From contig NZ_LT977070.1 in assembly GCF_900250075.1 (NCBI RefSeq), positions 3,424,749 to 3,488,748 of the forward strand: 64,000 bases of DNA, written 5' to 3'. Origin of the DNA: Cupriavidus taiwanensis (GTDB lineage: Bacteria > Pseudomonadota > Gammaproteobacteria > Burkholderiales > Burkholderiaceae). Under the pieces are notes generated by a model that saw only the letters and a list, made by a program, of their open reading frames with translations, did no database searches and was not told the DNA's origin. This document shows, in pieces, positions 37,913 to 63,161 of the stretch (position 1 is its first letter; each line of letters starts with the position of its first letter). Both the position numbers and the translations under genes were made by a program.

Positions 37913-37936
37913 CGCAAAAAAAAGCCCCGTCGCAAG
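37913..37936 (-). repeat. Terminator-like hairpin on the strand opposite engB/hemB
   Basis: CCCCGT and ACGGGG form a stem; on the minus strand it is followed by GCTTTTTTTT. Read on the plus strand the tail lacks T residues, so it fits poorly as an engB terminator. It could stop antisense transcription or be bidirectional but weak. Confidence 0.4.
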
Positions 37937-38066
37937 CAACGGGGACAAACTTTCCCGCCGGTGGGGCGGGTACCCGCTCAGGGAGGAGTAGCGGGGGACA
38001 CCGCGCCACGCAGCGCGCAACGCAAAGTGTCCGCGAGTATGATGGCGGGCACGCACAAAAGTTTAG

Positions 38067-56538: not shown

Positions 56539-57189
56539 TTAAGCTTTGGCTTTGGCCTTGACGGCCGGGGTAACGATGACCTTGCCGTTCTTGGAGCCGG
56601 GAATGGCGCCCTTGACCAGCAGCAGCTTGCGCTCTGCGTCGATCTTGGCGATCTCCAGGTTCTGCACGGTGCGGGTGACATCGCCCAGGTGACCGGTCAT
56701 GCGCTTGCCCGGGAACACGCGGCCCGGATCCTGCGCCATACCGATCGAGCCCGGCACGTTGTGCGAGCGCGAGTTACCGTGGGTGGCACGGCCGGAGGCG
56801 AAGTGGTAGCGCTTGATGGTACCGGCGTAGCCCTTACCGATGGTCACGCCCTGCACGTCGATCTTCTGACCGACTTCGAACAGGTCGACCGACAGCGAAC
56901 CGCCAGCTTGCAGTTCGGCAGCCTTGGCTGCGTCGATACGGAATTCGCGGATGATTTCGCCGGCTTCCACGCCGGCTTTGGCGAGGTGACCCGCCAGCGG
57001 CTTGGTGACGCGGCTTGCGCGTCGTGCGCCGAAGGTGACTTGAACCGCGGTGTAACCGTCGGTCTCGTCCGTCTTGATTTGCGTCACGCGGTTGTCGCCG
57101 ACCTCGACCACGGTCACGGGAATCGCTTCACCGTCGTCCGTGAAAATACGGGTCATGCCAACCTTGCGACCTACAAGGCCAAGGCTCAT
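56539..57189 (-). CDS. rplC: 50S ribosomal protein L3
   Basis: L3 (216 residues) reads [20 protein letters not shown] and includes [32 protein letters not shown] 57189 has GGAG six bases upstream; open frame further up is untranslated leader. It is the first gene of the interrupted S10 operon and has its own promoter. Confidence 0.98.
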
Positions 57190-57332
57190 GGTTTGCTCCA
57201 TTCCCAGCTGCGATTGGCCGGGGCTGATTGATACACGAAAACTGTGCTTGCGCTTGTGCGCGGATGGACTTGCGCTAAACAAGACTGCGCGCGACCAAAA
57301 TGGCCAGCCCACTACCCGATGGGTAGCCTTAC

Positions 57333-57361
57333 ACTATATCGCAGCAGTTTGGAAAGGGCAA
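57333..57361 (-). promoter_or_regulatory. Sigma70-type promoter of the rplC-rpsQ unit
   Basis: On the minus strand TTGCCC (57356-57361), a 17-bp spacer, TATAGT (57333-57338). Predicted start near 57326 coincides with the 5' hairpin. It drives rplC independently of tuf-rpsJ. Confidence 0.78.
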
Positions 57362-57448
57362 TATGAATTGCGGATTTCCCTGCAATGTTGTAGGCAGGGA
57401 TCGCGCAGCAGTGACGCTTGCGCTGCCTGGCTGTGGTGTCGGGACGAC

Positions 57449-57469
57449 GGGCCGCTATCGGAGCGGCCC
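57449..57469 (-). terminator. GC hairpin after the flavin reductase gene
   Basis: GGGCCGCT/AGCGGCCC form an 8-bp stem with a 5-nt loop 22 bp beyond the stop codon. No T-tract follows, so it could be a weak or Rho-assisted terminator. Confidence 0.4.
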
Positions 57470-57490
57470 ATCAGGCACAGCAAAAAGCGT

Positions 57491-57991
57491 TTAGGCCGCG
57501 ATGCGAACGAATTCGCCGCCATAGAAAACCAGCGGCTCGCCCTCCCCTGCCGTGAACGCTTCGACGGCGCCGACGATCAGCAAGTGGTCGCCCACCGGAT
57601 CGGCCCGCTCGACCCGGCATGACAGCGTCGCCAGCGCCTGGTCCAGGTAAGGCACGCCGTGCGGGCAACGACGATGGCCAACGCCGGCGAACTTGTCGGG
57701 CGACGGCGTGGCAAAGCGGCGCGCCAGTTCGCCGTGGCCGGCGCTCAGGATGCTGACGCCGAACGGCGCGCCCGGTGCGAACAGGCCCGCATTGGGCGAA
57801 TGCCTGGCCAGGCTCCAGAGGATCAATGGCGGCGCCAGCGACAGCGACGCGAACGAGTTGACGGTGATGCCGACCGGCCGCCGCTGCGGCGTGCAGGCAC
57901 CGATAACCGCCACGCCGGTCGCGTAGCGCCCGCAAACCCGGCGCAGTTCGCGCGGATCGAGCGCGGGGGCGGCATGGCTTGAGGCGTCCAT
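57491..57991 (-). CDS. iifD: Flavin reductase, partner of the StyA-like monooxygenase
   Basis: This 166-residue NAD(P)H:flavin reductase of the HpaC/StyB type delivers reduced FAD to the oxygenase. The fold is seen in YATGVAVIGACTPQRRPVGITVNSFASLSLAPPLILWSL and in the GVPYLDQALATLSCRVE segment, which lies before the final strands. It starts one base after the oxygenase stop (TGA-C-ATG). Corresponds in position to iifD/indB of indole clusters; flavin preference is not visible. Confidence 0.85.
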   Translation of the reverse strand: MDASSHAAPALDPRELRRVCGRYATGVAVIGACTPQRRPVGITVNSFASLSLAPPLILWSLARHSPNAGLFAPGAPFGVSILSAGHGELARRFATPSPDKFAGVGHRRCPHGVPYLDQALATLSCRVERADPVGDHLLIVGAVEAFTAGEGEPLVFYGGEFVRIAA

Positions 57992-57992
57992 G

Positions 57993-59234
57993 TCAGGCGG
58001 CCTGCGGCAGGTGATGATCGATCAGCTGATGGCACGCCTGCGGGTCCATCCACCACGGGAAGTAGTCCGGCGGATTATCGAAGCCGTTGGCGATGCGAGC
58101 CGCCAGCGCCGGCGATTGCCCCGCGGCTCCCAGCAGCGCCAGGATGTGCGGCGGCGGCGGTGTCAGCAGCGAGTTGGTCCAAGCCACCACATCTCCGGCG
58201 TATTGCCAGTAACTGGCGAAGGTCTGCGCCATCCAGTCACCGTCGAACGGCCGCTCGCCATGGGCGAGGATGGCGTCGAGGTAGACCTTGCAGCATTTGG
58301 CGGCATTGTTGGAGCCTTGGCCGGTAATCGGATCGTTGACCACCACGGCATCGGCCATGCCGAATACCAGCCGGCCCGACGGCAGCGTCAGCACCGGCTT
58401 GCGCACCGTCGGCGCGAAGCGGCCCGACAGGATGCCGTTGTCGTCGGTCAGCGCCACCCGCTCGCAGCGCTCGGCTTCCCATGGCGCATAGGTGCGCAGT
58501 ATGCGCAGGCTTTCCGCGAGGTGCTGTTCGGGCGTGCGGGCCTCGGCCCAGCGATCCATCGGGCCGCCCGGAATGCCCTCGAACACCATGATCTCGCACG
58601 GCCCCGACAACGTCAGCGCGGGAAAGACGAAGTACTCGCCCACGCCCGGAATCAGGTTGAAGCAAACCCGCGAGAACGGCTCGCGCGGCAGCATGCCGGT
58701 GACGTAGGTCAGCGCCAGCGCGCGCTGGGGCCGCTCGAACGGGCTGCGCGACGCATCGCGTTCGAAGCGGCTGACGATCTCGCCCTTGCCGGCAGCCAGC
58801 AGCACCAGGTCATGCTCGCGCGCCAGTTCTTCGAGCTCGTCGACGCCGACATCGACGATGCGCAGGTCGCCGCGGCGCGCAACAAAGGCCTCCATCCATG
58901 CCGGCATCTTCAGGCGCTGGTCCACCGCCTGCGCCGGCCGGTCCAGGGGTGCGGCCCAGTCGATGACCTTGGCGCCGGGCAGCTCGGGATGCGGCACGGC
59001 CAGGCCGATGCCCTGCACCGGCGGGCACGTGTCGTCCCACCAGTTCAGGCCCAGCTCGCGCTCGGTCTGCAGCGCGCGGTCGAACATGCACTGGCTGGAC
59101 ATGACCTTGCCGGCGCGAACCTGTTCCGGCGTGCGGTTGGACAGCAACGTGACGCGGTAGCCGTGGGCTTGCAGCCCGAGGGCCATTTGCAGGCCCGACT
59201 GGCCCGCTCCGACGATGGCGATGCGCTGGCGCAT
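57993..59234 (-). CDS. iifC: Styrene/indole monooxygenase-type flavoprotein oxygenase (StyA family)
   Basis: This 413-residue FAD-dependent monooxygenase resembles StyA/IndA/IifC. The dinucleotide motif GAGQSG (9-14), the mid-region FERDASRSPFERPQRAL and carboxy-side NDPITGQGSNNA (the flavin-binding stretch) are conserved, as is TNSLLTPPPPHIL. Such enzymes epoxidise styrene or indole using reduced FAD. The SDR and DLH/SnoaL partners and AraC regulator favour indole. ATG 59234 has AGGAGA upstream. Substrate is inferred from context. Confidence 0.82.
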   Translation of the reverse strand: MRQRIAIVGAGQSGLQMALGLQAHGYRVTLLSNRTPEQVRAGKVMSSQCMFDRALQTERELGLNWWDDTCPPVQGIGLAVPHPELPGAKVIDWAAPLDRPAQAVDQRLKMPAWMEAFVARRGDLRIVDVGVDELEELAREHDLVLLAAGKGEIVSRFERDASRSPFERPQRALALTYVTGMLPREPFSRVCFNLIPGVGEYFVFPALTLSGPCEIMVFEGIPGGPMDRWAEARTPEQHLAESLRILRTYAPWEAERCERVALTDDNGILSGRFAPTVRKPVLTLPSGRLVFGMADAVVVNDPITGQGSNNAAKCCKVYLDAILAHGERPFDGDWMAQTFASYWQYAGDVVAWTNSLLTPPPPHILALLGAAGQSPALAARIANGFDNPPDYFPWWMDPQACHQLIDHHLPQAA

Positions 59235-59269
59235 GACGTGGTCTCCTGAAGGATCGTTGTGGGGCGTTT

Positions 59270-60058
59270 TCAGCCGGCCAGCTTGCCGATGGCAGGCAAG
59301 TTCTGCTCCGGACCCATGGCGGAGTAGCCACCGTCGACGGCATAGTCCGCGCCGGTGACGAAGCTCGCGTGATCGGAGCAGAGGAAGAGCACCACCTGCG
59401 CTACCTCGTCCGGCTCGCCGACGCGCCCGAGCAGGTGGAACGGCGCGGCCACCGCATCGGTTCGGGCACGGTTGCCGCTGCTGACCTGGTCCATCAGCCG
59501 GCACCAGGTCCAGCCGGGCGATACCGAGTTCACGCGGATGCGGTCCGGCGCCAGATCCATCGCCATGCTGCGCGTCAGCTGCGCGATGGCCGCCTTCGAC
59601 ACCGGATAGAGCCAGCGCCCGGTCTGCGCCACACTGGCCGAGATGCTGGTGAAATTGACGATGGCGCCGCCGCCGCGCGCGCGCATCAGCGGATGCACCG
59701 CCTGCGCCAGCATCACCCCGGAGACCACGTTGACATCGAGCGCCGCCAGCCAGTCGGCGCGATTCGAGCGCAAGCCATCGTCGAGATAGGTGCAGGCGAG
59801 GTTGACCAGGAAATCGACGCCTCCGAAGTGCCGGGCGACCTGGCCGACCGCATCGCGGACCTGCTCGTCCCGCGTGATGTCCGCCGCGATGAAGAGCGCG
59901 TCCTTGCCCAGTTCCGCGGCAACGCGCTCGCCATTGGCGGCGTCGATATCGAAGATCGCCACGCGCGCGCCGGCCTCGACGAAGGCCCGTGCCACTCCCG
60001 CGCCGATCAGCGTGGCGCCGCCGGTGACGATGGCCACCTTGTCCTGCAATCCCTTCAT
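59270..60058 (-). CDS. iifB: Short-chain dehydrogenase/reductase of the indole-type cluster
   Basis: This 262-residue classical SDR has the cofactor motif TGGATLIG (12-19), a following Asp (FDID) that favours NAD, VNLA instead of the usual NNAG, and the catalytic Ser138-Tyr151-Lys155 (YPVSK). In the Acinetobacter system the equivalent IifB oxidises the dihydrodiol formed from indole epoxide. ATG 60058 has GGGAG upstream. Thirty-five bases before the oxygenase gene. Confidence 0.8.
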   Translation of the reverse strand: MKGLQDKVAIVTGGATLIGAGVARAFVEAGARVAIFDIDAANGERVAAELGKDALFIAADITRDEQVRDAVGQVARHFGGVDFLVNLACTYLDDGLRSNRADWLAALDVNVVSGVMLAQAVHPLMRARGGGAIVNFTSISASVAQTGRWLYPVSKAAIAQLTRSMAMDLAPDRIRVNSVSPGWTWCRLMDQVSSGNRARTDAVAAPFHLLGRVGEPDEVAQVVLFLCSDHASFVTGADYAVDGGYSAMGPEQNLPAIGKLAG

Positions 60059-60148
60059 GGTTGTCTCCCTGTTGGTCTCCGGCTCGGTCACCGTTGTCCG
60101 GTACGGGGCTGGCCTGTGCGGGCCCGCTCCCGTTCAGTGCCGCCTGGC

Positions 60149-61378
60149 TTACTTGCCTTCGCTCTGCTGCCAGCGCGCCATCAGCGTGTTGGATGGCAGG
60201 GTTTCATCCAGCAGCTTGCGCGCGGTTTCCACGCCCGCCACCGGCAAACCCGCCGGGTCCAGCTTGCCGATCTGCACCAGCACGCTGGCCTGGTCCCAGT
60301 AGATGTGCTCGTGGTAGAGCTTGTCGCCGCGGAACTTGACGATGGCGATCAGCGGGATCTCCACGCGCTTGCCGGTGGGCGGCACGCCGGGCAGCATCCA
60401 GTCGATCTCGCTGGTGTGGGTGAAGCAGAACAGCAGCTCGTCGACGATCTGGCTGGCACCGACCGTGCGCGACAGCGGGATCAGCGTCGTGTCCGGCGGA
60501 TTGCTGTGCACGAAGTGGTGCTGGTAGAAGCGGCGCAGCTGCGCGTGGCCGACACCGCCGGTCATGGTCGGGATATGGTTCACATAAGGCTGCGCCACCA
60601 TCGTCGCCATGGTTGCATCGACATCGCGGGTGGCGAATTCATACTCGCAGTGCTTGTCCCACAGTGCCGAGAAGTCGTAGTGCGGCCCCATCTCGCGGCG
60701 CAGCGCGGCGATCGAGCGCTGGTGCGCCATCAGCGCCGAGGGCTTGTCGAAATGCTCGCCGCCGGCGCGCGCAAAGGCATGGTCGACGCCGGCATAGACG
60801 TACACCTCGATGTGGTCCCGGCCGGCCAGCGCCTCGCGGATCGCCGCCTGCGCCTGTGGCGGGCAGAAGCCGTCCTGCTCTGCGATATGCAGCACCAGGC
60901 GGCCACGCACGTTGGCGGCCTCTCCCAGCGCGTGCTCGATACCCACGCCGTAGTAGGACACCGCGCAGGCCACATCGGGCAGCCGGCAGGCCGCCAGGTA
61001 GGCCAGCTTGCCGCCCAGGCAGAAGCCCAGCACGCCGGCCTGGCCGACGCATTCGGGCCGCGCGCGCAACGTCTCCAGCGCCGCGCCCACATCCTTCACG
61101 CCCTGCGCTTCGTCGAACTGCTGATAGAGGCCGAGCGCGCGCTGGAAGTCGTCGCCGCGGTCGGTCAGCTCGATGCCCGGTGCGATGCGCCAGAACAGGT
61201 CGGGCACCAGCACCGTATAGCCTTCTTCGGCGTAGTAATCGGCCACCTGGCGCATGGTGGCATTGACGCCGAAGATTTCCTGGCACAGCACGATGCCGGG
61301 GCCCTTGCCGGCCGCCGGTGTGGCGAGATAGCCGCTGAAACTGCCTTCGGGGGTCTGGATCTGGATGGTCTGGCCCAT
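60149..61378 (-). CDS. iifA: Dienelactone hydrolase fused to a SnoaL-like domain
   Basis: This 409-residue protein combines an alpha/beta hydrolase of the dienelactone hydrolase type (residues 1-230) with Cys120 in GFCLGG, Asp169 and His200 as the likely triad, and a SnoaL-like (NTF2-fold) carboxy domain (~235-409). In indole clusters the equivalent first gene (IifA) is reported to turn 3-hydroxyindolin-2-one into anthranilate without a cofactor. First gene of the catabolic operon. ATG 61378 (MGQTIQIQTPEG) starts the hydrolase fold. Confidence 0.78.
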   Translation of the reverse strand: MGQTIQIQTPEGSFSGYLATPAAGKGPGIVLCQEIFGVNATMRQVADYYAEEGYTVLVPDLFWRIAPGIELTDRGDDFQRALGLYQQFDEAQGVKDVGAALETLRARPECVGQAGVLGFCLGGKLAYLAACRLPDVACAVSYYGVGIEHALGEAANVRGRLVLHIAEQDGFCPPQAQAAIREALAGRDHIEVYVYAGVDHAFARAGGEHFDKPSALMAHQRSIAALRREMGPHYDFSALWDKHCEYEFATRDVDATMATMVAQPYVNHIPTMTGGVGHAQLRRFYQHHFVHSNPPDTTLIPLSRTVGASQIVDELLFCFTHTSEIDWMLPGVPPTGKRVEIPLIAIVKFRGDKLYHEHIYWDQASVLVQIGKLDPAGLPVAGVETARKLLDETLPSNTLMARWQQSEGK

Positions 61379-61659
61379 GGCCTGCGCTCCTTGTCGTTCT
61401 CTGTTGGCTGACAGCTGGTGGAGGGTCGCGCTGCCGTGCTGGATCCCATGATGGTGGCTCCGCACCGCAGCAAACTAGCCGCTGGCTGCAGCGGCTATCC
61501 GATTAGTGCAGGAAAGTTCGGCTTCGGTCAACGCAACGCCAGAGGCGAGCGGGTCGATCCGCTATAGTGGTTGCGTGGACCATGCGGAGCGCATGGCGCC
61601 CCGGCCCCCGCTGCCGTGGACGCCAGCCAGCGCCGCGGCCACGCCAGAGGAGCGAGACC
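61379..61659. other. Divergent control region of the catabolic cluster
   Basis: The 281 bp between the DLH-fusion gene (minus) and the AraC-type gene (plus) hold a perfect 9-4-9 inverted repeat and a TATAGT (61563-61568) likely to serve the regulator gene. No further gene. Confidence 0.55.
61476..61497. promoter_or_regulatory. Perfect inverted repeat, candidate operator of the AraC-type regulator
   Basis: TAGCCGCTG (61476-61484) and CAGCGGCTA (61489-61497) are perfect arms around GCTG, about 100 bp upstream of the catabolic operon's first ATG and 160 bp upstream of the regulator's. Position and symmetry suit a regulator binding site. Confidence 0.5.
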
Positions 61660-62673
61660 ATGTTGCAGCTGCCCCCGACTGCCCGCGCGCCGGCGCCGCT
61701 GGCCCACGCCCTGCTGCACGATGCCGGGCGGCAGGTGTTCGCCTCGACCGACCTCGGCCAGACGCGTGCGGCGGTTGGCCGGGTCTTCAAGCCACACCGG
61801 CTCGATATCCGCGGAACCAGCCTGTCGGCGCGCATGCATCACGCCCCGCTGGGCGCGGTGTCGCTGAACCGGCTCGCCTACGGCGCCGATGTCACCATCG
61901 ACCCGGGGCCGCTCGGAGACTTCCTGCTGGTGCAGATGCCGCTCAGCGGCCAGGCGGAGATCCGTTGCGGCGCGCAGCAGATCGTGTCGACGCCCGACTG
62001 CGCTTCGGTGGTGACACCCAGCGATCCGCTGCTGATGCGCTGGAGCGCGGACAACGACCAGCTCATCGTGCGTGTCGAGCGCAGCGCGCTGGAGCGCGTG
62101 TGCGCCGCCTATCTCGGGCATCGCCCGGACCCGCCGCTGCGCTTCCAGCTCGGCATGGCCTGGCGCAGCGCCGGCTGGTATCCATTGATGGAGTATCTGG
62201 CGCAGATGCTGTCGATGGCGCCCGAAGCGGCCCGCCATCCGCTCACGGCATGCCAGCTCGAGCAACTGGTGATCGGCGCGCTGCTGACGCTGCAGCCGCA
62301 CAGCCTGTCGGAGGCGCTGCAGCGGCATGGCAAGCCGCTGGCGCCGCGCCACGTGAAAGTGGTCGAGGAGTATATCCACGCGCATGCCGCCGCCGCGCTG
62401 ACGCCAGCACTGCTGGCCGAAATCGCGGGGGTCAGCCTGCGCAGCCTGTATGCGGGCTTCCGCGAGCATCGCGGGCTGAGCCCGATGGCCTACCTGCGCA
62501 CGGTCCGGCTCGACCGGGTACGGCACGACCTGCTCAACGACGCGGCGCTGTCGTCGGTGACCGGCGCCGCGCTGCGCTGGGGCTTTACCCACCTGGGACG
62601 CTTCAGCGCCGAATACCGGCGCGCGTTCGGCGAGTGCCCGGCCGAGACGCTGCGCCGGCGCGGCAGCGTGTAA
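61660..62673 (+). CDS. iifR: AraC-family transcriptional regulator of the catabolic cluster
   Basis: This 337-residue activator has an amino-terminal cupin-like AraC-binding domain ([17 protein letters not shown]) and a carboxy-terminal double helix-turn-helix ([36 protein letters not shown] and [21 protein letters not shown]). The overall form resembles XylS/NahR-region activators of aromatic catabolism that end in [16 protein letters not shown] sequence. ATG 61660 has GAGGAG upstream. Divergent from the catabolic genes; the inducer is probably indole or a derivative. Confidence 0.85.
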
Positions 62674-62712
62674 GTGCCTGTGTGGCGCCGCCGCGCGGCG
62701 CGCCACCAAACA

Positions 62713-62740
62713 AAAACGGCGAACCGAGGTTCGCCGTTTT
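62713..62740. terminator. Bidirectional terminator between the regulator gene and rpsJ
   Basis: AAAACGGCGAACC (62713-62725) pairs with GGTTCGCCGTTTT (62728-62740) almost without loop, giving T-runs on both strands. It can end the regulator transcript and the tuf-rpsJ transcript. Confidence 0.9.
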
Positions 62741-62775
62741 GCTGCAGCAGGCTGCGCAAGCAGCCCGAAGCATGA

Positions 62776-63084
62776 TTACACCTTGATCTCGACGTCCACG
62801 CCTGCCGGCAGGTCGAGCTTCATCAGCGCGTCAACCGTCTTGTCGGTCGGGTCGACGATGTCCATCAGGCGCTGGTGGGTGCGGATCTCGAACTGATCGC
62901 GGCTGGTCTTGTTGACGTGCGGCGAACGCAGGATGTCGAAGCGCTGGATGCGGGTCGGCAGGGGCACCGGGCCCTTGACGATCGCGCCGGTACGCTTGGC
63001 GGTATCCACGATTTCGGCAGCCGACTGGTCGATCAGGCGATAGTCGAAAGCCTTCAGGCGGATACGGATCTTCTGGTTCTGCAT
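62776..63084 (-). CDS. rpsJ: 30S ribosomal protein S10
   Basis: S10 (102 residues) reads [19 protein letters not shown] and contains [22 protein letters not shown]. It follows tuf and is followed by a terminator instead of rplC, an interrupted S10 operon. Confidence 0.98.
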
Positions 63085-63161
63085 GATATTTCCTTAAAAG
63101 AGCGATTGGGCAAGCTGCCCGTTGAATGGGGACATGCCCGCGGGCATGTCCCAGGAAGTGC

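Follow-up and report, generated by a model that had tools for sequence, protein, structure and literature searches.

We have analyzed a 64,000-nucleotide stretch of Cupriavidus taiwanensis DNA (contig NZ_LT977070.1, positions 3,424,749 to 3,488,748; hereafter, the window) in which the ribosomal protein genes rpsJ and rplC stand 5,586 bp apart, with five non-ribosomal genes between them. Each of the five has a Pfam match, and coordinates and matches bear out the preliminary description of this DNA, which had recognized the same five genes. One of them, iifA, has repeatedly been retained in the genus where the others were lost. The start codons of the five cluster genes are our choice. In the direction of ribosomal transcription, the genes are as follows.

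62776-63084, minus strand: rpsJ (S10), the left border, downstream of tuf (Pfam PF00338, NCBIfam NF001861)
61660-62673, plus strand: iifR-like gene for a divergent AraC-family regulator (PF14525 and PF12833)
60149-61378, minus strand: iifA, a dienelactone-hydrolase (DLH) and SnoaL fusion (PF01738, PF12680)
59270-60058, minus strand: iifB, a short-chain dehydrogenase (SDR; PF13561, NF006121)
57993-59234, minus strand: iifC, a flavoprotein of the StyA-type indole/styrene-monooxygenase kind (PF17885; NF045732 below cut-off)
57491-57991, minus strand: iifD, a flavin reductase (PF01613)
56539-57189, minus strand: rplC (L3), the right border (NCBIfam TIGR03625)

The codirectional order iifA-iifB-iifC-iifD with an adjoining AraC-type iifR is that of iif/ind clusters, and Pfam finds in the window's IifA the same DLH and SnoaL two-domain protein. 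The closest solved structures span the DLH half of IifA only; IifC has relatives with a solved structure. Domains, order and published clusters all support the identities proposed earlier, and the set is, by its predicted products, an iif/ind-type indole-to-anthranilate cluster (iifR, iifA, iifB, iifC, iifD). In published work, Acinetobacter IifA has 416 residues and belongs to the DLH family (PMC4577076), with a C-terminal domain of SnoaL fold (PMC7225977); IifC and IifD together convert indole to the cis-2,3-dihydrodiol, IifB forms 3-hydroxyindolin-2-one, and IifA forms anthranilate (PMC6221969). The window cluster resembles the Acinetobacter operon (iifABCDE and iifR) and the ind cluster of Cupriavidus sp. 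SHE in having a DLH-family IifA with SnoaL C-terminus, an SDR (IifB), a flavoprotein (IifC), a reductase (IifD) and an AraC-type IifR (PMC4577076, PMC7225977, PMC6221969). It differs from the Acinetobacter operon in its seat between rpsJ and rplC and in iifE, for which no porin open reading frame (ORF) was found within the rpsJ-rplC interval, the rest of the genome not having been searched for it; a role for iifE was ruled out according to a review (PMC6221969). In the open-access papers searched, we found no iif/ind cluster placed between rpsJ and rplC. The indole cluster of Providencia rettgeri GS-2 also has an SDR, an oxygenase, a flavin reductase and an AraC regulator but, unlike the window cluster, carries a PF04199 cyclase instead of iifA, as well as an extra oxidoreductase and a porin (PMC9871250). 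We infer from the published homologues that the chemistry of the Cupriavidus cluster, indole to anthranilate, and its regulation are as expected for the family.

The arrangement is shared within the genus. The junction could be judged in 56 of 60 genus genomes, the window's own included; three genomes (G011, G031, G048; G numbers denote genomes and L numbers loci) were without the two genes, and in G021 a contig ended there. These 56 junctions comprise 32 with the full cluster, eight with iifA alone, one (G002) with iifA, iifD and a broken iifB, two (G007, G039) with 3' remnants only, and 13 that are empty, so that iifA is kept at 41 of 56. Among the eight is G052, a frameshifted draft with frameshifts also in rplC. 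The five-gene order is identical in every full junction. Besides the window, 31 genomes have all five genes here, with the oxygenase gene in two pieces in G038 and a contig end inside the reductase gene of G049, which was scored as full. An assembly error, against which the preliminary description had cautioned, is ruled out as the source of the insertion by the agreement of these 31 genomes. A search of 100 relatives for the oxygenase was positive in 38 of the 59 other genus genomes and in none of 40 from the order; 30 of the 38 carry it whole at 84-96% identity, G038 carries it broken in two, and the remaining seven have only a homologue of about 60% identity at another place. In G029, about 2 kb of extra DNA lies between rpsJ and the regulator gene (L119 10050-11620, minus strand) and resembles, by eye, a decayed hydrolase gene in several pieces.

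Outside the genus, both the cluster and the junction look different. Among the best 80 named loci with a related oxygenase, 18 are of Cupriavidus type, two of them under other names (Ralstonia sp. 25mfcol4.1 and Burkholderiaceae bacterium 16) and most of them from the same assemblies as our genus genomes. The cluster lies between rpsJ and rplC in 17 of these, and L162 has rpsJ and the cluster up to a contig end. None of the 62 non-Cupriavidus loci (Halomonas, Marinobacterium, Burkholderia, Pseudomonas, Providencia and more) has rpsJ or rplC within up to 8 kb per side, less at contig ends. It had been proposed that sharing by most relatives would make the insertion ancestral; this applies within the genus, where most junctions are full or keep iifA, and not to the 62 outside loci. 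Among 126 junctions measured in other genera, 121 have a gap of at most 303 bp between rpsJ and rplC (in 10 of the 136 outside genomes a gene was missing or the two genes lay on different contigs or strands). Of the five long junctions, that of G104 (L229) is 8.6 kb with molybdenum-hydroxylase genes; those of G113, G133 and G148, which are all the members sampled from one genus, are 3.2-7.6 kb and hold an FAD-dependent protein gene in G113 (L230), a like ORF in G148 (L232) and an amidase gene in G133 (L231); and that of G119 measures 32 kb.

Three signals flank the cluster in the window.

62713-62740, minus strand: intrinsic-terminator-like hairpin with a T-run, just 3' of rpsJ
57333-57361, minus strand: sigma-70-like promoter of rplC, TTGCCC-17-TATAGT
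57203-57222, minus strand: conserved hairpin directly before the rplC ribosome-binding site

By strict scans, the rplC promoter with its 17-base spacer was found in 55 of 55 contiguous genus junctions, empty ones included (G049 is outside this set, its rplC being on another contig), as well as in all 20 sequences sampled across ten other genera, compared with 215 of 2200 plainly shuffled stretches that match the promoter score. The rpsJ terminator hairpin with its T-rich tail was found in 52 of the 55, and the three that were missed (G018, G036, G052) each show a hairpin by eye; it is also present in all three sequences from g44 and g64, the nearest of the genera sampled. The 13 empty junctions have the promoter in every case and the terminator in all except G036 by the strict scan. 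A separate scanner recovered both signals in the window; in that region the promoter exceeds chance expectation and the terminator count does not. In alignments with full junctions, each of the 13 empty ones matches at just two places, the terminator end and the promoter and leader end, the latter covering the last 122-194 bp before rplC; the gene block is unmatched.

The insertion looks as if it were seated between two ribosomal transcription units, at the boundary of str and S10, and not within a split operon. What we find is units that neighbor each other in relatives with non-ribosomal genes between them, the unit borders being judged from sequence only. The preliminary description had instead proposed a split operon in need of new signals, a claim that the sequences do not support, as the predicted terminator, promoter and leader are present in the 13 empty junctions and the nearest outgroups as well. 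A recent insertion private to this strain, splitting the S10 operon and forcing new promoters and terminators, would fit the short junctions of other genera, where rpsJ and rplC are neighbors, but it is scarcely credible when the cluster occupies the same place in 31 other genomes and empty junctions already carry promoter and terminator. Insertions at this boundary are known, namely bfd-bfr, and ilv-leu in Sporolactobacillaceae (PMC8046335). Set against the short junctions of other genera, the insertion is unusual, as first described; within the genus it is widely shared, and insertions of this kind have precedents. Like those precedents, it consists of a few non-ribosomal genes that were placed at a ribosomal operon boundary, inherited and later altered; unlike them, its boundary falls after rpsJ, its cargo is catabolic with its own regulator, and it has decayed to one gene.

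The leader of rplC contains, just before the gene, some 30 near-invariant bases that include a 6-pair hairpin, as aligned in 41 family sequences (33 distinct rows, alignment A1; L251 failed the start-motif search and is outside it). All cells are paired (100%), but only one pair is changed on both sides and the level of covariation is reached by 92 of 500 shuffles, so support for the structure is modest. There was no match to Rfam at E up to 1. The hairpin is possibly an autoregulatory site of the L3-L4 unit. Upstream of these genes, a strong hairpin without a T-run was seen by eye between tuf and rpsJ (63085-63161, minus strand).

The history of the insertion was followed on a species tree built from 3.7 kb from rplC onward (59 rows including three outgroups; G052 left out). 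Six genomes with empty junctions diverge first and the remaining 50 form one group (100/96), within which full, reduced and empty junctions are intermixed. We consider it quite probable that an iif/ind operon was acquired early between a pre-existing terminator and promoter, was inherited, and was repeatedly reduced to iifA. The operon would have arrived early in the genus, once the six-genome clade had split off, and would have entered the spacer between the rpsJ terminator, at the end of a str-type unit (tuf-rpsJ), and the rplC promoter, at the start of the L3-L4 unit. Because terminator and promoter were already there, ribosomal expression need not have changed and the junction would tolerate cargo. 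IifR would activate iifABCD, IifC with IifD would oxidize indole to the 2,3-dihydrodiol, IifB would give 3-hydroxyindolin-2-one, and IifA would give anthranilate. Transmission would then have been mainly vertical, with a degree of exchange among species, and several lineages would later have lost part or all of the cluster, with iifA alone retained repeatedly.

Several results weigh against this history. The states full, iifA-kept and none need at least 11 changes on the tree, with gain and loss indistinguishable. The comparison of gene and species trees that had been suggested gave a divided answer: distances correlate (r 0.89), but the cluster tree (made without G038 and G049) has only 8 of 27 splits in common with the species tree, and G058 and G051 are placed differently in the two with strong support. 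In the oxygenase tree, which excludes segments of 350 residues or less and hence one of the 11 copies from a second cluster described below, 29 of 30 junction copies fall in one group (SH-aLRT 87, not starred); the copy of G057 sits at an unresolved fork with L185, G340 and G366, which are copies not found at the junction, so a single gain is not proven. No remnant is seen in two empty clades, G017/G036 and G005/G026/G027, which may never have had the cluster. The strict terminator was absent from 17 of 17 sequences of eight more distant sampled genera, and so it is not family-wide. Since distances correlate while splits and the placements of G058 and G051 differ, we read the cluster as having been inherited vertically for the most part, with species exchanging it to some extent.

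Some of these points would also suit a history in which similar clusters were gained independently, more than once, at a favored junction, instead of one gain with many losses. The distribution on the species tree is patchy, other cargo occurs at the same junction in other genera, and the G057 oxygenase does not resolve with the other junction oxygenases. Yet all full junctions have the same gene order and nearly all oxygenases group together, and losses are evident from the remnants in G007 and G039 and from the two-sided scars of reduced junctions. Separate gains appear improbable to us, and we infer a single early gain.

The deletion scars are observed directly. When reduced junctions are aligned with full ones, clean gaps lie close to iifA on either side, and their endpoints differ. 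Regulator, oxygenase and dehydrogenase genes have been lost or broken in about six lineages, and the reductase gene too in all but one. On the tree, the iifA-keeping reduced genomes form six groups (G014, G053, G016/G043, G034/G041, G028 and G002); the members of each pair may share a first deletion step. A lone iifA could have been left by chance in a cluster that is being lost completely, as complete losses exist and iifA is an inner gene, which erosion from both ends tends to leave. The ratio of nonsynonymous to synonymous substitution rates (dN/dS) between the two lone copies of G034/G041, 0.147, is also the highest found. Overall, however, the ratio is 0.038-0.147 for pairs with a reduced-junction iifA and 0.026-0.113 for 12 pairs of full junctions, and it is 0.040 between the lone copies of G016/G043. 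The gene is free of stops over the aligned length in seven of seven lone copies other than G052, and also in G002. Of 267 columns invariant among 31 full iifA copies, 0-3 are changed in lone copies, compared with 0-8 in leave-one-out controls with full copies. These results make a chance leftover unlikely; iifA has been kept intact under purifying selection where the rest of the cluster decayed.

One further feature precedes iifA in the window.

61461-61515, minus strand: conserved box upstream of iifA, containing a pair of similar 15-base stretches (61501-61487 and 61481-61467) spaced 20 bases apart

The box is near-invariant across 31 aligned full junctions and is a candidate regulator site, putatively for IifR. 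By eye, it is missing from G041, G043 and G053 and partly missing from G034; G014 has an altered version, and G016, G028 and G002 retain it fully or almost so. The regulator gene is absent from the junction in all eight iifA-keeping reduced genomes, with a fragment in G016. Because regulator gene and box are both gone there, lone iifA must be expressed some other way in at least three genomes.

A second araC-sdr-fmo-reductase cluster, diverged and with no iifA adjoining, is present elsewhere in 11 genus genomes (L236-L246); G055 carries a second cluster, and strain Cupriavidus sp. IDO is reported to have more than one iif copy (PMC6221969). In G028 (L237) it also includes a PF04199 cyclase, an amine-oxidase-like flavoprotein and a MetA-type porin; the GS-2 cluster resembles the second cluster of some Cupriavidus, including the content of L237 (PMC9871250). 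Lone iifA might be kept to serve this second cluster. Within one clade, seven of eight reduced junctions and four of 17 full ones belong to genomes that have it (Fisher p 0.007, uncorrected for relatedness; G052, off the tree, and G002 counted as reduced, G053 outside the clade, and G007 and G039 uncounted). Only five independent pairs exist for this comparison, however, of which about two agree and three are without difference, and the cluster examined in detail has a cyclase of its own. In addition, G014 and G053 have a lone iifA and no oxygenase match at E 0.001, so iifA is not kept there for an oxygenase of this family. Service to the second cluster is weakened as a sole reason by these three points, and we give it little likelihood.

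IifA may instead have a role of its own. We suggest tentatively, as a possibility somewhat short of even, that IifA is valued apart from indole oxygenation, for example in removing compounds like 3-hydroxyindolin-2-one that come from other sources, and that its address behind rpsJ made an inducible gene a steadily expressed one. With regulator and box deleted in several lineages, iifA would come to lie directly behind rpsJ and would be expressed by terminator read-through or from a new promoter.

These findings suggest that interrupting a conserved order of ribosomal genes does not necessarily disturb them; in these bacteria the rpsJ-rplC junction has the look of a boundary between units, one tolerant of cargo. 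Boundary insertion as such was already known; what was unexpected is that iifA repeatedly survived alone. By cutting the cluster down to a single intact gene more than once, with scars left behind, these lineages provide a natural experiment on which portion of an indole pathway merits retention, and a second role for IifA thereby becomes open to direct test.

Apart from this locus, the window contains a match to the Rfam family RF02837, anti-hemB small RNA, at 37916-37998 on the minus strand.

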